Shown here: positions 44,592 through 59,627 of the stretch, piece after piece
Position numbering within the stretch: the first letter of the stretch is position 1
Layout: every line of letters starts with the position of its first letter
Origin: Marinifilum caeruleilacunae
GTDB lineage: Bacteria; Bacteroidota; Bacteroidia; Bacteroidales; Marinifilaceae
Direction of reading: 5' to 3'
DNA: 64,000 nucleotides
Assembly (NCBI RefSeq): GCF_013141825.1
Contig: NZ_RZNH01000001.1
Location: forward strand, 62,001 to 126,000
Position numbers and translations under genes: made by a program
The notes under the pieces: generated by a model
What the model saw: only the letters and a program-made list of their open reading frames with translations
The model's database searches: none
Told to the model about the DNA's origin: nothing

Positions 44592-44621
44592 CAATAATTT
44601 AGTCTATTGTTCGTATATTTG
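44592..44621 (+). promoter_or_regulatory. promoter and candidate operator of the LexA-like gene (divergent with dinB)
   Basis: TATATTTG at 44614-44621 matches TAnnTTTG, 13 bases before the ATG at 44634. The inverted repeat CAATA-N8-TATTG (44592-44609) lies just upstream of it, where a repressor would block initiation. The arms are only five bases, so the operator call is tentative. Confidence 0.45.
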
Positions 44622-45400: not shown

Positions 45401-45430
45401 TTGTATGTACAACTAATGTCTATATATTTG
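45401..45430 (+). promoter_or_regulatory. MarR gene promoter with overlapping dyad operator
   Basis: TTG (45401-45403) and TATATTTG (45423-45430) are exactly 19 bases apart, giving a consensus promoter. The dyad TTGTATGTACAA (45401-45412, TTGTA-TG-TACAA) covers the -33 element. The same 12-mer recurs twice before the next gene, so this looks like an autoregulatory operator. Confidence 0.75.
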
Positions 45431-47380: not shown

Positions 47381-48481
47381 ATGAAACGATTATTTGAGCC
47401 TGTAAAAATCAACTCTTTAGAGCTTAAAAATAGAATTATCCGATCGGCAGCATGGATGAATGCTGCCGAGGATAATGGTAAGATAAACGAACAAACTCTA
47501 AAGATTTATGAAGATTTGGCTAAAGGAGGTGCCGGACTGGTGATGACGGGATATGCTTATATCCTGAAGGAAGAACAGCCAAACCCACATATGCTGGGAA
47601 TTTACAGCGATGATTTGATTGAAGAGCATAAAAAGTTAACATCCCTTGTACATGAAAATGGTTCCAAAATTGGACTTCAAATTGTGTATGGAGGCTCAGC
47701 TAGCACTCATCCCAATGCAGGATCTATGAAATTTATTGGACCTTCTGCTATACAAAACCGAATGACAGGTATTACACCAAAAGAAGCAACTATTGAAGAT
47801 TTTCGGAGAATTACCAAAGCTTTTGGAGATGCAGCATTCCGTGCAAAGCAAGCTGGTTATGATGCCGTTCAATTTCATGCCGCACATGGCTACTTTTTGA
47901 GCATGTTACTCACTCCTTATTTCAATAGAAGAAGCGATGAATATGGCGGTGATATTCATGGCAGGGCAAAGTTAGTCTATGAGATTGTTCAAGAAGTACA
48001 GAACAGAGTTGGTAGCGATTTTCCCGTAATGATTAAAATGAACTTTGATGATTTACTGGAAAATGGTGAAGGAATGACATTTAAAGAAGCTCAACAGCTT
48101 TGTCAGAGATTGGATGAGATAGGAATCGATTTAATCGAACTAAGTGCAGGAAGTCTATCGGGGAAACCAGATCTTCCTATTGTTAGAACTAAATTAAAGT
48201 CGCCTGAAGCACAATCATACTATAAAGAGGCCGCCATCAAAATTTCATCGCAGGTGAAAGCTCCAATTTCATTTGTAGGAGGAAATAGAACGCCAGACCT
48301 TATGGAAGAGATCTTAAATGATTCAAACATCGAATTCTTTTCCATGGCCAGACCATTTATTGCTGAACCGGATTTGGTTAATAAATGGCAGAAAAACCAA
48401 TCCTATCAGTTAAAGTGTGTATCCTGTAATCGATGCTGGGATACTGTCCCTGTATCATGTGTTTTGAATCGAAAAAAGTAA
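47381..48481 (+). CDS. Old Yellow Enzyme-type NADH:flavin oxidoreductase
   Basis: The 366-residue FMN TIM barrel begins LFEPVKINSLELKNRII. The substrate-binding histidine pair is in FHAAHGYFLSMLLTPYFN, followed by NRRSDEYGGD. The C-terminus carries a cysteine group (LKCVSCNRCWDTVPVSC) as in the class with an iron-sulfur-like tail, but it lacks the large extra domains of 2,4-dienoyl-CoA reductase. It probably reduces activated C=C bonds of enones and quinones. It belongs to the MarR-controlled run. Confidence 0.9.
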   Translation: MKRLFEPVKINSLELKNRIIRSAAWMNAAEDNGKINEQTLKIYEDLAKGGAGLVMTGYAYILKEEQPNPHMLGIYSDDLIEEHKKLTSLVHENGSKIGLQIVYGGSASTHPNAGSMKFIGPSAIQNRMTGITPKEATIEDFRRITKAFGDAAFRAKQAGYDAVQFHAAHGYFLSMLLTPYFNRRSDEYGGDIHGRAKLVYEIVQEVQNRVGSDFPVMIKMNFDDLLENGEGMTFKEAQQLCQRLDEIGIDLIELSAGSLSGKPDLPIVRTKLKSPEAQSYYKEAAIKISSQVKAPISFVGGNRTPDLMEEILNDSNIEFFSMARPFIAEPDLVNKWQKNQSYQLKCVSCNRCWDTVPVSCVLNRKK

Positions 48482-48489
48482 GTAGAATC

Positions 48490-49371
48490 ATGAAAGCAAA
48501 AGTGTTAGTAGTTGGTTGTACCGGACAAACCGGTAGCCTAATTGTTGAGCAGCTGGAGAATAATAATTTGGTTGATGTGAGGTATTGCTCCAGAAGACAA
48601 GAGCAAGTGAACAGGTGGCAGAGCGAAGGAAAAGATGCGGTTTATCTGGATTTAAATGAACCCAGAACTTTTGGAATTGCATTAGCTGGTATCGACCGAC
48701 TTTTTATTTTAACGGGATATACCGTAGATATGCTTCTACAAAGCAAAACATTAACCGATGCTGCTGTAAAGGCTGGCGTATCGCACATTGTACATTGGGG
48801 AATATTTGCCAATTGGGATTGTACCGAAGGTCATTTTGCATGGCACTAGCTGGTCGAAACTTATATTAAGGCCAGCGGAATTGCCTGGACCAACCTGCAT
48901 CCCAATTACTTCATGGAAAATTTACTTCATGTTACCCCTATTGTAGACAATCAGTTTGTTATGTTTTCGGGGAAAGCACGTTGGGGTTGGACTGCACTGG
49001 ATGATGCGGCTCGAGTTGCTGCAAGAGTATTGGAAGAAGGTGAAAAGAAACATGCGAGCAAATCTTATTGGTTAAGCACTGAAGCTTTAAACGGCGATGA
49101 AGCTGCTGAAATTCTTAGCGAAGAACTGGGCACTAAAATTACTTGTGATACCAGGGAACCAGAAGAATTAGAAGCTCTTTTTAATAGCGGGAAAACGGAT
49201 ATAGAAATTACCTACGCAAAAAATGCAGTTGACATTATGCATCAAATTCAAGATGGGCGAATGACCTATATGGGAACCATCAGAGATGATGTGCCTTATG
49301 TAACAGGTACTCCTTCTACCAGCTTTAGAGAGTGGGTGAAAATTCATAAGAGTGAATTGCTTGGTAAATAG
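48490..49371 (+). pseudogene. NmrA-like NAD(P)-binding oxidoreductase interrupted by one amber codon
   Basis: The frame from ATG 48490 (MKAKVLVVGCTGQTGSLIVEQ, a Rossmann GxxGxxG motif) to TAA 49371 is continuous except for one TAG at 48847-48849. The break falls in HFAWH-stop-LVETYIKASG, where NmrA-type proteins normally have Gln (HQLVE). CAG to TAG is a single-base change, and both halves keep family sequence (IAWTNLHPNYFMENL after the stop). It is either a recent nonsense mutation, a sequencing error or, less likely, stop read-through. The intact gene would encode 293 residues. The gene starts 8 bases after the Old Yellow Enzyme gene. Confidence 0.85.
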
Positions 49372-49381
49372 TTTAACAAGT

Positions 49382-49486
49382 CATTAACACAGGCTTAATT
49401 CTCTTTAAACGTGCATTTTACACATTTATGTAACTAAGAAAGGCCTGTGTTACAAATCTCTTTGCATTATCGAAACCATAGCTTTG
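49382..49486 (+). promoter_or_regulatory. promoter element A, copy 1
   Basis: CATTAACA (49382), TACACATTTATGTAACTA (49419-49436) and TGTTAC (49448-49453) precede the -7 element TAGCTTTG (49479-49486). The same words occur at 53279-53383 with identical spacing to their -7 box (97 bases). Here there is also a long inverted pair TAACACAGGC/GCCTGTGTTA (about 49385-49394 and 49443-49452). The element lies upstream of -35, as for an activator. Confidence 0.75.
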
Positions 49487-49513
49487 TATCAAAATCAATA
49501 AAAACATTATAAA

Positions 49514-49798
49514 ATGATCATTGTAACTGTTAAAGCCTCACCTAAACGTGAGCATAAGGAAGATTTTTTATCGGCTTTTAAGTCTGTATCCGAATTGGTG
49601 TATAAGGAAGAAGGATGTATTGAATATGAAATCTACCAAAAAGACGAAAAATCGAATGATTTGTTTCTTTTCGAGCGTTGGGAATCAAAGGAAGCATTGG
49701 ATGCTCATTTAAAAACAAAGCACATGGAAGATTTCTTTGCACAAGTGTCTCCATGGTTTGAGAGTGAAAATGACATGCAAGTTTACGAAGTGAAATAA
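49514..49798 (+). CDS. ABM-domain protein (putative quinol monooxygenase)
   Basis: The 94-residue antibiotic-biosynthesis-monooxygenase-type ferredoxin-like protein has VTVKASPKREHKEDFLSAF, EEGCIEYEIYQKDEKSNDLFLFERWESKEALDAHLKTKH. This is the YgiN-like group, linked to quinol oxidation in E. coli. It is the first gene behind promoter element A and lies 5 bases before a flavodoxin-like reductase gene. Confidence 0.85.
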   Translation: MIIVTVKASPKREHKEDFLSAFKSVSELVYKEEGCIEYEIYQKDEKSNDLFLFERWESKEALDAHLKTKHMEDFFAQVSPWFESENDMQVYEVK

Positions 49799-49803
49799 CA
49801 TCA

Positions 49804-50394
49804 ATGAAAGTATTAGTTATTTCATGTAGTCCAAGAGCAAAATCTTCGAGTCTGGCATTGGCACAACACAGCATCAATGCCTTGAAGGAAAATGGTATTG
49901 AGGTGGAGATCTATCATGTAAGAAACAAAAAACACCAAGTATGTGCGGGCTGTATGGCTTGTGTGAATAAACACAAGTGCATATTAAAAGATGATATGAT
50001 TGAACTTCATGAGAAAATGAAAGCTGCAGATGGAATTCTAATGGTTAGTCCTGTATATTTCTATGACGTTAACGCACAATGTAAAATCATAATTGACCGA
50101 AGTTATGCCGTTCAACCCTTAAACGGAAATAAGCTTGGAGCATCAATTATCACAGCTGGAAGTTTAAGACATATGGGTGCAATCAATACGATCAGCAACT
50201 TCTTTCTTGTACAAGGAATAGCCAATCTTGGCTTTGTTTCTGCTTACAACACAGAGCAAGAGCTAAGCAAAGGTATTGAGTCCGCAAAACAGCTAGGGAT
50301 AAAAATGGTTGAAGCCATTAAATTGATGCAAACATCAGAAGAAACACCATTCTCTATGCATAATCATTACTCATATGGAACGCATACTTTTTAA
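49804..50394 (+). CDS. iron-sulfur-flavoprotein-like NADPH:FMN reductase
   Basis: The 196-residue flavodoxin-fold protein has the phosphate-binding loop SCSPRAKSSSLALAQ and a cysteine motif CAGCMACVNKHKC (about residues 53-65). The latter is typical of the multimeric flavodoxin/iron-sulfur flavoprotein family. MVSPVYFYDVNAQCKIIIDRS is the usual FMN-site region. It probably transfers electrons from NAD(P)H to flavin or quinone acceptors. It sits 5 bases after the ABM gene in the element A operon and resembles the protein encoded at 55299-55934. Confidence 0.85.
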   Translation: MKVLVISCSPRAKSSSLALAQHSINALKENGIEVEIYHVRNKKHQVCAGCMACVNKHKCILKDDMIELHEKMKAADGILMVSPVYFYDVNAQCKIIIDRSYAVQPLNGNKLGASIITAGSLRHMGAINTISNFFLVQGIANLGFVSAYNTEQELSKGIESAKQLGIKMVEAIKLMQTSEETPFSMHNHYSYGTHTF

Positions 50395-50432
50395 GATCAT
50401 GGCTTTGATTTTCAGTCAAATAATAAATTTCA

Positions 50433-51020
50433 ATGAATAAAACGATGACACAATACTTCAAACCTATCTTACTAATTGTAGTATTTACCATGAACACAAA
50501 TACGATGAGTGCACAGAATAATAAAATTAAACAAGACAAATACCTGGAACCAACAGTAGGTTATGTCACTTTAATGAAAGAAGTCAGAAACCGACAATTT
50601 ACCAGAAATGACATCAAAAGTTTTGTGTATAAGGTATTTGCCATGTACGAAAGAGCTACTTGTGAAAATGTACATGTTAATGTAGATGAATTCAAACCCT
50701 TTATTGATGAAAATATTTACGTGGACTTTCCTGATTATCAAATTAGATCATGGAAGGACTACGTAGAATGGCATCAATGGATTCATAATCTTTTGGAGTC
50801 CGATGATCATAATATCGAGAAGATAAACGTGGAATTTCTTGTTAATGGAAAATATCAGGTCACTTTTGATGTACGCTGGCGTGGTTTGTTCAAAGATGGT
50901 ACTTATCTTGATAATACGATTCGACAAGTATGGATTATGAGAGAAGAAGAAGGAAAACAACTTCCTGTAATCGAAAAATATATTGCGAAAGTTAATGACC
51001 CAATGGTAATCGCTAATTAA
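50433..51020 (+). CDS. exported NTF2/SnoaL-like protein
   Basis: The 195-residue protein has an N-terminal signal (FKPILLIVVFTMNTNTMSAQ) and a cone-fold domain (about 60-190: DIKSFVYKVFAMYERATCEN, WKDYVEWHQWIHNLLES, YQVTFDVRWRGLFKDGTYL). It is related to the N-terminal domain of the ankyrin protein encoded at 51843. Its last codons overlap the start of the shared block in front of the SDR gene. It probably acts outside the cytoplasm; its ligand is unknown. Confidence 0.75.
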   Translation: MNKTMTQYFKPILLIVVFTMNTNTMSAQNNKIKQDKYLEPTVGYVTLMKEVRNRQFTRNDIKSFVYKVFAMYERATCENVHVNVDEFKPFIDENIYVDFPDYQIRSWKDYVEWHQWIHNLLESDDHNIEKINVEFLVNGKYQVTFDVRWRGLFKDGTYLDNTIRQVWIMREEEGKQLPVIEKYIAKVNDPMVIAN

Positions 51021-51075
51021 TACCATTATTCCCTCAATTAGTATAAGTGTTGAGCATAGCTTGCAAATATCTTTA
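51011..51075 (+). promoter_or_regulatory. promoter element B, copy 1 (SDR gene)
   Basis: CGCTAATTA at 51011, TACCATTATTCCCT (51021-51034) and TTAGTATAA (about 51038-51046) align without gaps to the DNA at 59562-59597 before another SDR gene (29 of 36 bases by hand count). The -7-like TATCTTTA (51068-51075) follows 57 bases from the element start. The first nine bases lie inside the end of the upstream gene. Confidence 0.7.
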
Positions 51076-51098
51076 CCCAAAATAAAAAAACACGAAGA

Positions 51099-51830
51099 AT
51101 GAAAAGAAATATCTTAATTACTGGTGGATCAGCAGGTATGGGCTTAAGTACCGCTATCAAATTTGCTGAAAATGGCGACCAGGTAATTATTACTGGACGT
51201 AATCGCGAAAAATTAGAAGAAGTAAAACAAAAATATCCGAACATATATACCATTGCTTCCGATGTTTCCATTAGTGAAGAACGAAAGGCATTAATGATTG
51301 AAATACAAAAGAAGTTCGGCCATATTGATATTTTGTTCTCCAATGTTGGAGTTGGAATTTTTAAACCATTAACAGAAATTTCAGAAGATGAGTTCGATAA
51401 GTTGGTGAACGTCAACTACAAGGGCACTTTTTTCTTCATTCAGGAAGCTTTAAAAATTATGCCTGATAACAGCAGAATTATTGTGAACAGTTCCTGGACA
51501 CATCACCGGGGCTTATACTCCTCTGCCCTTTATGGATCAACAAAAGCTGCCATTAGTCACCTGGTTAAATCTTTATCTATCGAACTGGCAGACAGAGGAA
51601 TTAATATCAATGCCATTAGTCCTGGCTATATCAATACAGAACAATTTAATGAAGAGATGCTGGGGGAAAAAGCAGCCCAGGCACGCAAGCTGCAAGTTCC
51701 GGTAAAGCGTTTTGGAAAACCTGAAGAAATAAGTGGCATGGTGTATTTTCTTGCCTCTTCTGATGCCAGTTATATTAATGGTCAGGACATCCTAATTGAT
51801 GGAGGCCTTACCGCAGTACATAACTATTAA
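51099..51830 (+). CDS. short-chain dehydrogenase/reductase
   Basis: A classical SDR of 243 residues: TGGSAGMGLSTAIKFA (cofactor), DILFSNVGVG, the catalytic Ser in IVNSSWTHHRG and the YxxxK motif in ALYGSTKAAISHLVKS. The C-terminus is complete (NGQDILIDGGLTAVHNY). The substrate cannot be predicted. It begins behind promoter element B and is followed after 12 bases by the ankyrin gene. Confidence 0.9.
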   Translation: MKRNILITGGSAGMGLSTAIKFAENGDQVIITGRNREKLEEVKQKYPNIYTIASDVSISEERKALMIEIQKKFGHIDILFSNVGVGIFKPLTEISEDEFDKLVNVNYKGTFFFIQEALKIMPDNSRIIVNSSWTHHRGLYSSALYGSTKAAISHLVKSLSIELADRGININAISPGYINTEQFNEEMLGEKAAQARKLQVPVKRFGKPEEISGMVYFLASSDASYINGQDILIDGGLTAVHNY

Positions 51831-51842
51831 AACCATAAGCAT

Positions 51843-53273
51843 ATGAACACATTAACCAAAAGAATAACTATATCGCTCTCTATCATCCTATTTGTAAGTT
51901 TCCTAAGCAATGCTCAAACAAATGTTGCCAGCAAGCTTGAAGGTAAATCAGACTACGATCAGAAAGCTCGTACTGAATATAGTGTGAATGATGTAATCGC
52001 ATTTATTTATCAATGGTTCGCAGCCTTCGACCATCAAAAAGAAGTTGATTACTATCTAGAGCATATTGCAGAGCCTGTCGATATGCATTTTCCTGATTTT
52101 CCAATTAAATCAAAAGATGATTTTAAAAGGTGGTACAAGGGTGTTGAAGACAATATTACATGGAACAGTCATGCACTTCGAAATATCCAGGTTAGCGGAA
52201 ACGAAAAAGATGGCTGGAAAGCCAGCTATGATGTAGAATGGAAAGCGATTGGCAAACAAAATCAGCACTTTGAGATGATCATTCATCAGGATGTAGAATT
52301 GATTCGCAAAAAAGATATTTTACAGATAACACAGCATAAAGCCTATATGAAGGATATCAAGCATCAGGATACACATTTAACAGCCTTAATGAAAGCTGCA
52401 GGAAATGGCAATGCTGAATTGGTAAAAGACTTGATTGAAAAGGGAGCTAATCTATTTACTCTCGATCCTCTTACAGGCACAAGTGTGCTTCATTTTGCTG
52501 CCCAGGGAGGCAATGTTGATGTAATGAAAACATTGGTGGATAATGGTGCCGAAGCCATCATTAACTTACAAGCTGCCAGCAATAGCTTTTCCCCTTTAAT
52601 GGTAGCAACATGGTATCAAAACCCTGAAATGATAAAATATCTTTTGAGTCTGGAACATATTAATCCGAATTTGAAAGATCAGTTTGGGCGTCGCGCAGAT
52701 CAATTTCCAGCTATCGCAAAGGGTTATGATGATTATCATAAAATTGACAAAGAAATCCAATCGATTTACAAAAATTATTTTGCCAAGTATAATTCTTATA
52801 TGCAAGATAAATTTGAAGCTGATAAAACAACACCTAAAAATTTACCTGAAGATGTAAATTTAAGAATTCCAAATAATGAGGTTGGTGCCGGCCAGCACAC
52901 TGCTGCATTGGTTGCAGCTAGAGACAATAAAATTAAGCTCTTTAAAGAAATGATTAACAATGGAGCCGATTTAACTGCGGATGGTGAATACATGAAAGCA
53001 ATTGTTGCGCACAAAGCAGCATATATGGGAAATCCCGAAATCATGGCCTTAATCGTAAAACATCCGGATTTTGAGAAAATTAAAAATGCACAAGGTCCTA
53101 CCAATGGCTACACCCCACTGCACGATGCCATTTGGCATGGTCATACCCAAACGGCAAAAATTTTAATTGATGCTGGTGTAGATACCTCTATTGTAGCGTG
53201 GGATGGAATGACTCCATACGATTTGGCCAAAAAGCTACACTATTCAGACATTATGAAGCTACTAAAGGATTAA
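51843..53273 (+). CDS. exported protein: SnoaL/NTF2-like domain plus ankyrin repeats
   Basis: The 476-residue protein has a signal peptide (ISLSIILFVSFLSNAQ, cleavage near residue 24). An NTF2-like domain follows (about 40-175, FIYQWFAAFDHQKEVDYYLEH), then ankyrin repeats (about 180-305 and 340-476; examples DTHLTALMKAAGNGNAELV, GYTPLHDAIWHGHTQTAKIL). The ankyrin part should bind a partner protein. The combination of an extracytoplasmic NTF2-like domain with ankyrin repeats is unusual. It ends 6 bases before promoter element A copy 2. Confidence 0.82.
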   Translation: MNTLTKRITISLSIILFVSFLSNAQTNVASKLEGKSDYDQKARTEYSVNDVIAFIYQWFAAFDHQKEVDYYLEHIAEPVDMHFPDFPIKSKDDFKRWYKGVEDNITWNSHALRNIQVSGNEKDGWKASYDVEWKAIGKQNQHFEMIIHQDVELIRKKDILQITQHKAYMKDIKHQDTHLTALMKAAGNGNAELVKDLIEKGANLFTLDPLTGTSVLHFAAQGGNVDVMKTLVDNGAEAIINLQAASNSFSPLMVATWYQNPEMIKYLLSLEHINPNLKDQFGRRADQFPAIAKGYDDYHKIDKEIQSIYKNYFAKYNSYMQDKFEADKTTPKNLPEDVNLRIPNNEVGAGQHTAALVAARDNKIKLFKEMINNGADLTADGEYMKAIVAHKAAYMGNPEIMALIVKHPDFEKIKNAQGPTNGYTPLHDAIWHGHTQTAKILIDAGVDTSIVAWDGMTPYDLAKKLHYSDIMKLLKD

Positions 53274-53278
53274 CTTTT

Positions 53279-53383
53279 CATTAACAGCACACTATTTATC
53301 TGTGAATCTTTAAAATACACATTTGTGTAACTATAACAGGTGTCTGTTACCAATCAAAGCAAAGAGCTGAAAAGTTAATTTTG
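53279..53383 (+). promoter_or_regulatory. promoter element A, copy 2
   Basis: CATTAACA (53279), TACACATTTGTGTAACTA (53316-53333) and TGTTAC (53345-53350) precede the -7 element TAATTTTG (53376-53383). All offsets from the first base (37, 47, 66 and 97) equal those at 49382-49486. By hand about 50 of the first 75 bases are identical with no gap. It drives the NosR-like operon. Confidence 0.75.
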
Positions 53384-53428: not shown

Positions 53429-54589
53429 ATGCAGAACAAATTTATGGAGAGCATCGCCAACACGGTGCTCTTACTTTTATTTTTTATGGCAGCAGTTTCC
53501 TACAACGGAAAGTTGTTTGGTCATAAAGCCGAAGACTTATTTTCATCTGAAAAGGATGAAATTGAAATTATTGCCCCAACTACAAGTCAATTGGGCAAAC
53601 TGGGAATTAGTGAAGGTATTTTAAAAGAAGAAAAAAAGGGAGTCTGGATCACAGGAGAAAATTTTGGCGGGGATAAGGTGATCAATACACTTGCGTTCAG
53701 CAAAGGTGTGTATGGATTTGGTGGTCCTACTCCCCTGCTTTTGCAGATCGATTCTTCCAACAAGATTAAGAACATTCTTCTTTTGGAAAATAATGAAACA
53801 CCCGATTTTATTGCTTCCATAAAAAGCGAAGGAATAATCGATCAGTGGATGGGCAAAGATTACCAGGAAATGTCATCCATAAAACCAGATATATTGTCTG
53901 GTGCAACTATGACTTCCAGTTCCATAAACAGATCGATACTAAACAGTTTGCAAGCCATTAGCAATGGCGGTAACAAAACCAATTGGCTTTCGATAATCGA
54001 TACCAAGAGTATAGTGGCCATTCTTGTGATTCTGCTAGCTGTGTTTGTTTCTTTCCGAGCCAAATCAAATAAACATTTGAGAACCTTACAACTGGTATTA
54101 AATACTGCCATTTTAGGATTTTGGTGCGGTAAGTTTATCTCCATTAATGTTTTGTTGGGATGGACAGCCAATGGTATGAATCTGTTAACAAGCAGTGCTG
54201 TATTTCTGATGCTGGTTCTCGCTATTGTCATGCCACTGTTTTTCAAAAAGAAATCTTTCTATTGCAATTGGGTCTGCCCTTTTGGTTCGGCCCAGGAACT
54301 GGCAGGCAAACTGAGTAAGAAAAAGTTCCATCCAAGTCAGAAATTCATGAAGATTCTGAAACATAGCCAAAGCTTTATTACACTGGCGGTTTTCTTCAGC
54401 CTTTGGCTAGGAATGGCTTCCGATATTGTTGATTATGAACCATTTTCCGCCTTCATTTTTCAACATGCTTCCCTGGCTGTAATTTGTATTGCCGTAATCA
54501 GTCTTGTTATTTCAATCATCACACCTCGTCCATGGTGTCGATTCGTATGTCCAACCGGTCAGATTTTAAACTGGACCAACAAAATGTAA
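53429..54589 (+). CDS. NosR/RnfG-like FMN-binding 4Fe-4S membrane protein
   Basis: A 386-residue membrane protein. An N-terminal anchor helix (about 9-25) is followed by an FMN_bind domain (about 60-185). Its flavinylation motif SGATMT (Thr162) is where ApbE would attach FMN covalently, outside the cytoplasm. Four to five membrane segments follow, with two polyferredoxin-type cysteine loops, CNWVCPFGSAQE and CRFVCPTGQI. It resembles NosR/NapH-type electron conduits, here with only part of the cysteine set. It heads an operon whose next genes encode flavoenzymes. Confidence 0.85.
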   Translation: MQNKFMESIANTVLLLLFFMAAVSYNGKLFGHKAEDLFSSEKDEIEIIAPTTSQLGKLGISEGILKEEKKGVWITGENFGGDKVINTLAFSKGVYGFGGPTPLLLQIDSSNKIKNILLLENNETPDFIASIKSEGIIDQWMGKDYQEMSSIKPDILSGATMTSSSINRSILNSLQAISNGGNKTNWLSIIDTKSIVAILVILLAVFVSFRAKSNKHLRTLQLVLNTAILGFWCGKFISINVLLGWTANGMNLLTSSAVFLMLVLAIVMPLFFKKKSFYCNWVCPFGSAQELAGKLSKKKFHPSQKFMKILKHSQSFITLAVFFSLWLGMASDIVDYEPFSAFIFQHASLAVICIAVISLVISIITPRPWCRFVCPTGQILNWTNKM

Positions 54590-54592
54590 ATC

Positions 54593-55282
54593 ATGAACAT
54601 TCAAAAAACACTAAATATTATTCTTGCACTTTCTCTGGTGGTTTTATTGATAAAAATGAACCAACGAGAAGAAGCAACCATAAGCAACGATACTTCGGAG
54701 CCAACAGACTACACCAATATCCCAAAAAAGAATATTGGAAATCACGCTGCACTCTATGCCACACCAACAACGGTTGTTGGCACAAAAGTAGATGGTAAGG
54801 TCAACTGGATTGCCATAGCACACATCGGAAATATTGGTTTCGATTGCCTGATTTTAAGTTCCGGCAAGTCACATTATTCAAATCAGGGTATTAAAAAGAA
54901 TGGAACTCTTTCTGTAAACATGGTTTCAGAATCAATGATGATTCCGGCAGATTTTGTTGGAATGAAATCTGGAAAAGATGTTGACAAATCAAATGTATTT
55001 GAATATTTTGAAGGGAGTTTAGAAAATGCTCCAATGATAAAGTCATCACCCATTACAATGGAATGTGAGGTAATTGATGTATATGATACGGAACATCACG
55101 ATAATTTCATTGTGAAAGTTGTAAATACATACGTTAGTGAAAGCGTACTGGACGAAAATGAGAAAATTGACTTTAACAAAGTAAAGCCACTATTATTTGA
55201 AATGCCAAAACGTGGTTATTACAAACTTGGGGAAAGAGTTGGCGATGCCTGGAAAGAAGGAAACAAGTTCAAAAATCAATAA
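54593..55282 (+). CDS. membrane-anchored flavin reductase-like protein
   Basis: The 229-residue protein has a single N-terminal hydrophobic segment (NIILALSLVVLLI, about 8-20), then a flavin-reductase-like split-barrel domain (about 45-220: NHAALYATPTTVVGTKVDG, GFDCLILSSGKSHYSNQGI, FVGMKSGKDVDKSN). Members bind FMN and reduce it or another acceptor with NAD(P)H. The anchor is unusual for this family and suggests membrane attachment, possibly extracytoplasmic. It lies 3 bases after the NosR-like gene. Confidence 0.8.
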   Translation: MNIQKTLNIILALSLVVLLIKMNQREEATISNDTSEPTDYTNIPKKNIGNHAALYATPTTVVGTKVDGKVNWIAIAHIGNIGFDCLILSSGKSHYSNQGIKKNGTLSVNMVSESMMIPADFVGMKSGKDVDKSNVFEYFEGSLENAPMIKSSPITMECEVIDVYDTEHHDNFIVKVVNTYVSESVLDENEKIDFNKVKPLLFEMPKRGYYKLGERVGDAWKEGNKFKNQ

Positions 55283-55298
55283 TAAAACAGTAAGGAAT

Positions 55299-55934
55299 AT
55301 GAAACTTATAGCGATTAACGGAAGTCCTAAAAAGGAAGGCAACACCTATCATGCGCTTCGTCTGGTATGTGAGCAGCTGGAAGCAAAAGGAATTGAAACG
55401 GAAATTTTGCAGGTAGGCATTAAAAATGTGAAAGCTTGTACTGCTTGTAACATGTGTGCAAAAAACCAGGATGAGAAATGTATCATTAAAAATGATGATG
55501 TAAATGACTGGATTCAGAAGATGAAGGAAGCTGACGGAATTCTGCTGGGATCGCCGGTTCACTATGCCGCTTTAGGTGCCGGTATGAAGTCGTTTCTGGA
55601 CCGTGCTTTCTATGTAAGTGGTGTAAACGGCAACCTATTCCGTCATAAAGTTGGTGCATCTATTGCTGCTGTGCGCCGATCGGGTGGATTGCCTGCATTC
55701 AACGAAATGAACAACTACCTGAACTATTCTGAAATGATGATTCCTACTTCAAACTATTGGAATGTGATACACGGAACCATGCCAGGTGAAGTACACAAGG
55801 ATGAAGAAGGGGTTCAGATTATGAGAGTTTTGGGTAAAAACATGGCTTACCTAATGGAACTTATAGAGAATGGCAAAGGAACAGTAGAAGCACCAGCTCC
55901 TGAAAAGAAAGCATTCACTCACTTTATCAGATAA
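55299..55934 (+). CDS. iron-sulfur-flavoprotein-like NAD(P)H:FMN reductase
   Basis: The 211-residue flavodoxin-fold protein begins MKLIAINGSPKKEGNTYHAL (FMN phosphate loop). The cysteine motif CTACNMCAKNQDEKC lies near residue 48, and GILLGSPVHYAALGAGMKSFLDR forms the flavin site. There is no signal peptide or anchor, so it is cytoplasmic. The frame reads back to 55197 through the upstream gene; the ATG at 55299 is the family start. It is 16 bases after the anchored flavin reductase gene and resembles the 49804 protein. Confidence 0.88.
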   Translation: MKLIAINGSPKKEGNTYHALRLVCEQLEAKGIETEILQVGIKNVKACTACNMCAKNQDEKCIIKNDDVNDWIQKMKEADGILLGSPVHYAALGAGMKSFLDRAFYVSGVNGNLFRHKVGASIAAVRRSGGLPAFNEMNNYLNYSEMMIPTSNYWNVIHGTMPGEVHKDEEGVQIMRVLGKNMAYLMELIENGKGTVEAPAPEKKAFTHFIR

Positions 55935-55949
55935 TCAGAGAAATCGTAT

Positions 55950-56582
55950 ATGAGTATTAAAAACATTGGAACCGCACAGATTGTGAATATTCTTTTGGCA
56001 GTCTGTGTGCTATTATTGATCTTAAAATTCAGTTCAAAAACTGAGCAAAAAATGAATTCAGAAAATCATACATTGGAAATCATACACCAAAGAAAGAGTG
56101 TGAGAAATTATACCGATGAGAAGGTAAGCAAGGAACAACTGGAAAACCTGGTAAAAGCCGGAATGGCTGCTCCAACTGCTGTAAACAAGCAACCCTGGGC
56201 TTTTATTGCCATTGACGATAGAAGCACCCTGGATCAGTTGGGCGATGCCCTTCCCTATGCTAAAATGACCAAAAAAGCCAGCGCTGCCATTATCGTTTGT
56301 GGTGATCTTAGCAAAGCATTACAAGATTGGGAGCAGGAATTTTGGATTCAAGACTGTTCTGCTGCCACTCAAAACATTTTGTTGGCTGCCGAATCGATGG
56401 GATTAGGTGCTGTATGGACTGCCGCTTACCCTGCAAAAGACAGAATGGCATCGGTAGTGGAAATTCTGCAATTGCCAGAACATATTGTTCCGTTAAATGT
56501 TATTCCAATTGGTTATCCTACAGGAGTAGAAAAGCCAAAAGACAAATGGAAACCTGAAAACCTGCATTGGCAGAAATGGTAA
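55950..56582 (+). CDS. membrane-anchored nitroreductase-family protein
   Basis: The 210-residue protein has an N-terminal hydrophobic segment (IVNILLAVCVLLLILKF, about 10-27) with a pattern like that of the 54593 protein. The nitroreductase domain follows: IIHQRKSVRNYTDEKV (FMN contact), MAAPTAVNKQPWAFI, AATQNILLAAESMGLGAVW and IPIGYPTGVEKPKDKW. The soluble family is normally cytoplasmic and unanchored. It lies 15 bases after the flavodoxin-like reductase in the element A copy 2 operon. Confidence 0.85.
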   Translation: MSIKNIGTAQIVNILLAVCVLLLILKFSSKTEQKMNSENHTLEIIHQRKSVRNYTDEKVSKEQLENLVKAGMAAPTAVNKQPWAFIAIDDRSTLDQLGDALPYAKMTKKASAAIIVCGDLSKALQDWEQEFWIQDCSAATQNILLAAESMGLGAVWTAAYPAKDRMASVVEILQLPEHIVPLNVIPIGYPTGVEKPKDKWKPENLHWQKW

Positions 56583-58703: not shown

Positions 58704-59567
58704 ATGATTCAAAAAATTTCGAACATTCAAGAGCTATATCAACTTACTGGATTTGATCACTCTCCTATTACTGATCATTTTGATATCATCACACACCAGG
58801 AAACCTATCCAAGCACCCGCAAAATGGTTCCTGCACATCGTAGAGATTTTTTTTCAATCATCTTTCTTGAAAATCAGCAGGAAGGTGAAATGCAGATCAA
58901 CCAGGATAAGCATGCCAATCAGGAAGACATTATATTTTTTCAAGGTCCTCAGCATGTGTTTAGTTTTGTAAGAGGAGAATCGATGACTGGTTTTCTGATA
59001 TTCTTCAAGCCAGAGTTTCTTTTGCCACTAAAGAATGATGTTGTTTCAGACTTTTCCTTTTTCAGAAGCAGTGAGAATAACTTGTTTCATCTAAACAGCA
59101 CTGATAAAAAGGAGTTTGTAAACTTGTTCAAGATGATCAAGTCGGAAAGTCGAAATCAAGAGGTTGTGAAAGCCCTATTACTTGCCTTACTTGAAAAAGC
59201 TGCACTACTTCAGAAAAAACACCAAACCATTGAAAAAGCAATACCTGGTGAAATTCAATTGGTTAATAACTTCAAAAGACTGGTTAATAATCATTTTATT
59301 GAAGAGAAATCTGTTGAGTTTTACGCCATACAGTTAAATCTCACTGCAAATTATCTAAACAACAGGATTAAAGCCCAAACCGGTAAAACGGCAAAAGAAC
59401 ACATTTCGGAAAGAATCCTGCTTGAAGCAAAAAACATGTTGTTGTATACTGATTTTGATATCGCTGAAATCAGCTTCAGACTGAACTTCTCAGAACCTAC
59501 CTACTTTGGGAAATTCTTTAAGAAACACACACAAATTACGCCACGAGCTTTTCGATCGAATCGCTAA
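58704..59567 (+). CDS. AraC-family transcriptional regulator
   Basis: The 287-residue protein has an N-terminal cupin-type effector domain (about 20-160) and a C-terminal double-HTH AraC domain (about 195-287: FYAIQLNLTANYLNNRIKAQTG, then DFDIAEISFRLNFSEPTYFGKFFKKHT, ending TPRAF). It is the natural candidate to bind promoter element B, one copy of which lies directly downstream of its stop. Its own promoter overlaps a perfect 13-base dyad. Confidence 0.93.
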   Translation: MIQKISNIQELYQLTGFDHSPITDHFDIITHQETYPSTRKMVPAHRRDFFSIIFLENQQEGEMQINQDKHANQEDIIFFQGPQHVFSFVRGESMTGFLIFFKPEFLLPLKNDVVSDFSFFRSSENNLFHLNSTDKKEFVNLFKMIKSESRNQEVVKALLLALLEKAALLQKKHQTIEKAIPGEIQLVNNFKRLVNNHFIEEKSVEFYAIQLNLTANYLNNRIKAQTGKTAKEHISERILLEAKNMLLYTDFDIAEISFRLNFSEPTYFGKFFKKHTQITPRAFRSNR

Positions 59568-59627
59568 TTATTACCATTTCTCCCTTTTTTAGTATTATCA
59601 CTCACCCTCTATTCTAGCCTACTTTTG
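59562..59627 (+). promoter_or_regulatory. promoter element B, copy 2 (SDR gene)
   Basis: CGCTAATTATTACCATTTCT (59562-59581), then CCCT and TTAGTAT (59589-59595), are shared with 51011-51046 without gaps. The -7 element TACTTTTG (59620-59627) starts 58 bases from the element, against 57 in copy 1. It is next to the AraC gene and in front of an SDR gene. Confidence 0.7.

Follow-up and report, generated by a model that had tools for sequence, protein, structure and literature searches.

A composite promoter element shared by two redox operons of Marinifilum caeruleilacunae and its probable recognition by an HxlR-family regulator

The two operons and their promoter elements

We analysed a 64,000-nt stretch of the Marinifilum caeruleilacunae genome (the window), in which two operons on the plus strand are preceded by copies of one promoter element, at 49382-49486 (element 1) and 53279-53383 (element 2), that is probably recognized by a regulator of the HxlR family. 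Operon 1 begins with a gene for an ABM-domain protein (49514..49798; Pfam PF03992), which is followed by a gene for an NADPH-dependent FMN reductase (49804..50394; PF03358); the next gene on the same strand (50433..51020) encodes a protein of unknown family with no Pfam match and would also belong to operon 1. Operon 2 encodes a NosR-like FMN-binding/4Fe-4S protein (53429..54589; PF04205 FMN_bind and PF12801 Fer4_5), a flavin reductase-like protein (54593..55282; PF01613 Flavin_Reduct), an FMN reductase (55293..55934; PF03358) and a nitroreductase (55950..56582; PF00881). The operon limits and start sites given here are predictions. An earlier note on this DNA had described the genes downstream of the two elements as unrelated, and by Pfam they are indeed unrelated.

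The two elements share CATTAACA at offset 0, TACACATTTrTGTAACTA at offset 37 and TGTTAC at offset 66, and their -7-like boxes, TAGCTTTG in element 1 and TAATTTTG in element 2, both start at offset 97, exactly as the earlier note had reported. Its hand estimate of about 50 agreeing bases in 75 was also borne out: ungapped identity was 48/72, 50/75 and 71/120, whereas each 75-mer slid across both strands of the window gave a mean of approximately 20.5 (standard deviation 3.8), with second-best places of 38 for the first 75-mer and 39 for the second. The match extends leftward by approximately 10 bases, where both elements read TTAACnnnTCATTAACA. In pairwise comparisons of 23 upstream regions of the cluster, the two elements were the top ungapped pair with a score of 30; the next pairs (28 and 25) corresponded to two other shared words.

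Each element can be divided into an A box, a core and a promoter, all on the plus strand. In element 1, the A box TTAACAAGTCATTAACA (49373..49389; consensus TTAACnnnTYATTAACA) is followed by the core palindrome TTACACATTTATGTAA (TTAC-N8-GTAA; 49418..49433), the downstream half-site TGTTAC (49448..49453) and the -7-like box (49479..49486). The corresponding features of element 2 are the A box TTAACTTTTCATTAACA (53270..53286), the core palindrome ATACACATTTGTGTAA (53315..53330), the half-site TGTTAC (53345..53350) and the -7-like box (53376..53383). In both, the -7-like box lies 49 bases from GTAAC, and the usual -33 place contains no TTG. The element is a composite, promoter-linked regulatory element at a fixed position, and many related copies lack the A box.

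In the whole genome, the three words at their fixed spacing occurred at only two exact places. A further nine places had three mismatches, compared with 17 for the reversed pattern; thus, by this pattern, only the two window elements stand out. The middle word alone, with at most three mismatches, occurred at 13 places compared with 23 for its reverse. The same words at comparable density and spacing elsewhere, which the earlier note had named as grounds for abandoning the proposal, were not found.

Further copies in this genome and in relatives

Genome contigs were scanned with an alignment of three NosR proteins, and of the 26 loci obtained, three contained four elements in all. In Marinifilum breve, elements lie before the ABM gene (L056 4133) and before the PfpI-NosR genes (L056 9024); in the metagenome-assembled genome (MAG) McBI.38, an element lies directly before NosR (L057 9862), and in the Carboxylicivirga MAG McD6.26, before a second ABM gene (L059 2453). 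The element therefore keeps its link to the operon despite a different first gene, since PfpI stands between the element and NosR in M. breve and not in the window. Conservation in related genomes, a check suggested in the earlier note, was thus found in these named genomes as well as in the profile searches below. No close NosR was detected in five genomes of the same genus (best E 3.8e-23, compared with 1.5e-256 for the window's own protein), and in genome G015 (that of L058, L060 and G099) a full element was found upstream of neither NosR copy. A similarity search of 58 relatives with element 1 DNA returned one other match, 31 bases in the same-genus genome G002, which lay inside a 434-amino-acid reading frame and was taken as chance.

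We then built a sequence-only profile, R1, from six elements chosen by the analyst. Over the M. caeruleilacunae genome, R1 retrieved the two window elements, then a third copy at C1:137522-137617 (E 9.6e-4) on which it had not been trained, and thereafter only matches with E of at least 0.35. The third copy carries CATTAACA, TGTAAT and TAAAATTG at offsets 0, 47 and 98 and precedes a glyoxalase gene (L044 12157-12744). This gene and an hxlR gene on the opposite strand (L044 12720-13115) are convergent, with overlapping 3' ends. The third copy has both the A box and a -33 TTG.

R1 was also applied to four further genomes reached through the loci. Its best match in G099 (E 0.0019) lies before a glyoxalase gene next to hxlR, its best in G098 (E 0.0043) before a glyoxalase gene, and its second in G097 (E 0.03) adjoins hxlR, the first in that genome (E 0.02) having none of the query proteins beside it; these sites were absent from the training set. 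The best match in G100, between hxlR and a glyoxalase-NosR operon, was not significant (E 0.4). Untrained matches before glyoxalase genes were found in three further genomes, with hxlR converging within the locus in two. The M. caeruleilacunae HxlR protein is 50-84% identical to five HxlR proteins of L059, G099, G097, L061 and L062, and 21-35% identical to the other three HxlR proteins of its own genome (a partial comparison for one of them).

Adjacency of the element to hxlR genes

A broader search covered 393 genomes of one order, which named genomes within it (L061, L062) indicate to be the Bacteroidales. A first alignment that included the glyoxalase sites (A4) was badly gapped and was replaced by a core alignment (A5); the resulting core model, R2, represents nine sites chosen by the analyst and spans the -7 box. 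HxlR proteins were searched for in the same genomes. The two best untrained R2 matches, in G435 (E 3.1e-8) and G245 (E 3.2e-6), both flank hxlR, and in G435 the order is element, glyoxalase gene, converging hxlR. Among 30 R2 loci (28 lying outside the training set; 1.5 kb examined to either side), an HxlR match was found in three (phmmer, E <=1e-4), while AraC, MarR and LysR queries gave no matches at the same threshold. Four of the first 31 untrained R2 places listed were within 1 kb of an HxlR gene; a fifth (G445, E 0.15) was lower down.

Reading the R2 matches gave a short word, GTAACTA-N11-TGTWAC-TTATTG, which with at most two mismatches occurred at 41 places in the 393 genomes. Eight of these were within 1 kb of one of 150 listed HxlR genes, against an expected 0.0104, whereas none of the 89 places of the reversed word was, the HxlR contigs for this control having been hand-picked from the list of 150. 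The expected counts are based on a genome size of 3.5 Mb and on the 150 listed HxlR matches alone. Five of the eight places (G435, G245, G241, G017 and G445) were already known from the R2 search; the three new ones (G081, G128 and G153) fell among the other 36 places, for which 0.009 was expected (p ~1e-7). The short word itself is not enriched over its reverse, but its adjacency to HxlR genes is. Divergent hxlR promoters at four loci (L061 9398, L062 2984, L148 3806 and L153 4727) contained TTAC-N8-GTwACTA followed by GTACTTGCAAA, a variant of the downstream half-site.

The association was also approached from the protein side. The ten closest HxlR orthologs (E <1e-30, nine genomes) were chosen by protein, with the M. 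caeruleilacunae protein excluded, and their regions were given a geometry score out of 21. All ten scored at least 17, compared with 6 of 202 comparison windows from the NosR loci, two of those six being known elements. Four of the ten regions had not been viewed for the motif before, or had been viewed without a match; they scored 18 (G224), 17 (G415), 19 (G044) and 17 (G347) (p ~1e-6). Left out of these counts were G241c, G017 and G445, which had been picked for the motif (scores 20, 21 and 21), and the M. caeruleilacunae region itself (16).

Promoter geometry and the A box

In 21 tabulated promoters, the best -7-like box started 50 (15 promoters), 49 (five) or 44 (one) bases after GTAAC; the box was taken as the best of 12 positions, and all six bases matched in 14 promoters and five in the other seven. 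The part of the Bacteroidetes promoter literature that we consulted gives the housekeeping consensus as TAnnTTTG at -7 with TTG or TTTG at approximately -33 (PMC7366714), and TAnnTTTG is present in both window elements. A TTG at the expected -33 place, 27 bases after GTAAC, was found in 15 of the 21 promoters, a count that is partly selected because seven of the sites came from a pattern containing TTATTG. The six promoters without it, each of which carries an A box (TTAAC-N5/6-TTAACA), were L057, L059, the two M. breve sites and the two window elements. When the seven pattern-derived sites were removed, TTG was lacking in six of seven promoters with an A box compared with none of seven without (Fisher p 0.005), the sequences being related rather than independent.

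The A box is a direct repeat of TTAAC with a spacing of 11 bases that starts approximately 50 bases upstream of the core. Its full consensus occurred exactly in all three copies on contig C1 and at one other place in the genome (C43:20866), where no core was found in the stretch read. As a stand-alone motif the A box was weak (29 places in the genome with at most one mismatch, compared with 18 for its reverse) and was set aside. We consider it possible, though doubtful, that in this lineage a distal A box took the place of the -33 TTG in an HxlR-dependent promoter, so that a simple HxlR promoter became one requiring two inputs, HxlR and an A-box factor, at the ABM, NosR and PfpI operons.

A candidate regulator and its mode of action

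In other genomes of the order, HxlR genes are repeatedly accompanied by the module TTAC-N8-GTAACTA(T)-N10-TGTwAC, whose -7-like box is 49-50 bases away from GTAAC; the module precedes genes for enzymes of redox or electrophile metabolism: the ABM protein, the NosR-like protein, glyoxalase, DJ-1/PfpI, cupin and nitroreductase. In other genomes, seven first downstream proteins were scanned and proved to be six Cupin_2 proteins and one DJ-1/PfpI protein; at two further short-word places, the downstream protein lay outside the scan (L170) or there was none (L162). On these sequence comparisons, the shared core is probably the operator of an HxlR-family (DUF24, MarR-like winged-helix) regulator. 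The regulator is most likely the product of the hxlR gene at C1:138222-138593 on the minus strand, approximately 23 kb downstream of element 2 and beside the third copy. This protein matches the HxlR family PF01638 with 100 bits against a curated cut-off of 20.8.

Several observations weigh against this assignment. The hxlR gene is not adjacent to the two window operons, the genome contains four HxlR genes, and adjacency would also fit an hxlR gene that is a mere target of another factor. The copy before the glyoxalase gene of M. caeruleilacunae is weak (TGTAAT, TGTGCG), with a geometry score of 16/21 that 8% of the comparison windows reach, and in G245 the copy is found 3' of hxlR, with no intervening glyoxalase gene. 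The Carboxylicivirga locus has its one element before the ABM gene and lacks a good copy immediately upstream of PfpI-NosR, and the hxlR gene of M. breve itself was outside the genomes searched. The short word was partly read from matches already known to lie beside HxlR genes (G241, G017) and is not diagnostic alone, since 33 of its 41 places have no listed HxlR gene within 1 kb and the reversed word is commoner. The geometry score was devised when the motif had already been noticed in six of the ten ortholog regions, three of the remaining four (L152, L154 and L155) had gone undetected with a stricter word, and regions of more distant HxlR proteins reached 17 in only 5 of 18 cases, one of which was already a pattern match.

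The earlier note had proposed the local AraC proteins (genes at 58704 and 63.3 kb) or the MarR protein (45451) as candidate regulators. They are encoded in the same island as the operons, and several related genomes also have AraC and MarR relatives at their NosR loci. However, the MarR gene and the AraC gene at 58704 adjoin other conserved words, and queries with the two AraC proteins and the MarR protein gave no matches at the 30 R2 loci compared with three for HxlR, the adjacency count over 393 genomes having been made for HxlR only. Since the words beside them differ and HxlR was found at the R2 loci where they were not, we rejected these proteins, and binding of the element by one of them is quite unlikely. 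Somewhat less improbable, but still unlikely, is an unlinked regulator of another family (e.g., LysR- or Crp/Fnr-type) for which hxlR would be one target: the centre of the core palindrome lies approximately 52 bases upstream of the -7 box, and the element is divergent from, or near, hxlR. Such a site position is also typical of other activator families. The association was nevertheless seen for several HxlR paralogs and for different target genes, as expected for the HxlR family's own operator. It is very improbable that the elements simply descend from one duplicated promoter segment and have no regulator in common; the two copies are 3.9 kb apart and share some identity outside the words, but that identity is patchy, the words keep fixed offsets, and the same words precede unrelated genes in other genera.

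If HxlR binds the core, it would more probably activate than repress transcription. Activation is preferred because both window promoters lack the -33 TTG and have the operator placed upstream of their -7/-33 region. Repression, as by YodB and CatR, would be the lesser possibility: the 15 promoters with a TTG have their downstream half-site in contact with the -33 region, and YodB and CatR are described, in the part of the source consulted, as repressors that lose function on modification, with HypR being activated (PMC6943732). In contrast, HxlR of Bacillus subtilis is presented as a positive regulator in the portion seen of its structural study (PMC7835342). The single activator at a fixed position envisaged in the earlier note thus stands as far as position is concerned, with a conserved, fixed spacing to a Bacteroidetes-type -7 box, whereas activation is a prediction. 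Bound immediately upstream of the -33 region, dimers of HxlR may recruit RNA polymerase, and a thiol-reactive compound may act on a conserved N-terminal cysteine of HxlR. The distal A box may offer an additional contact, either to a different factor or to a second unit of the regulator.

The N-terminal cysteine is kept in all 13 HxlR proteins read, including that of M. caeruleilacunae, and aligns with the cysteine of YybR (PDB 4a5m). YybR, which we take to be HypR of B. subtilis, is the closest solved relative (E 4.9e-26), followed by 7kd3 and B. subtilis HxlR. Bacillus subtilis belongs to another phylum. HypR is linked to oxidoreductases and activated by thiol modification, according to the text available to us (PMC6943732), and has target genes other than those found here. 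B. subtilis HxlR (PDB 7bzd, 7bze and 7bzg; 7bzd E 6e-22) shares the family and the cysteine; in the sections consulted it answers formaldehyde through a Cys11-Lys13 cross-link, and its crystal DNA CAGTATCCTCGAGGATACTG differs from TTAC-N8-GTAA (PMC7835342). The residue two positions after the cysteine is leucine in 11 and isoleucine in two of the 13 proteins read here, so that the Lys13 partner, and with it the formaldehyde-sensing pair, is absent. The DUF24-type regulators YodB, CatR and QsrR belong to the same wider family but are more distant (YodB 5hs7, E 2e-14; QsrR 4hqm, E 7.9e-6); YodB and CatR control detoxifying oxidoreductases, as far as the source was seen (PMC6943732). BmoR of Bacteroides fragilis is a MarR-type regulator of thiol/disulfide balance in a Bacteroides; it differs in being a repressor with a proposed inverted repeat containing TTTCC, and the main text, as far as it was available, does not use the term 'HxlR' (PMC6158253). 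A limited search of the open literature found no described HxlR operator for Bacteroidetes, Bacteroides or Bacteroidales. Our analysis puts forward a defined operator, with its candidate regulator and a set of targets, for control by the HxlR family in this order, and the fixed link between operator, -33 and -7 regions, together with the proposed exchange of the -33 TTG for the A box, makes such control testable with two short promoter fragments.

Other words and genes of the island

The region from window position 44600 to C1:140000 is a long island of redox, short-chain dehydrogenase/reductase (SDR), SnoaL-like and glyoxalase genes, with matches to three AraC, two MarR and one HxlR regulators; inspection by eye added SIR2- and macro-domain-like genes and another MarR-like gene. 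The word TTGTATGTACAACTAA occurs exactly at 45401, 45908 and 45953, around marR and a flavodoxin-type gene, and with one or two mismatches at 64403 and 69247 in the joined stretch that runs beyond the window; it is likely a MarR operator. Another word, TACCATTnnTCCCTnnnTTAGTATnAT, lies at 51021-51047 and 59572-59598 before two SDR genes, the second site just after the AraC gene at 58704, and recurs with three mismatches at L042 3411, before an SDR gene next to an AraC relative in G015; it is likely an AraC operator. Finally, an NmrA-like gene is split into two frames here (48433-48849 and 48913-49371), compared with a single 316-amino-acid frame in M. breve.

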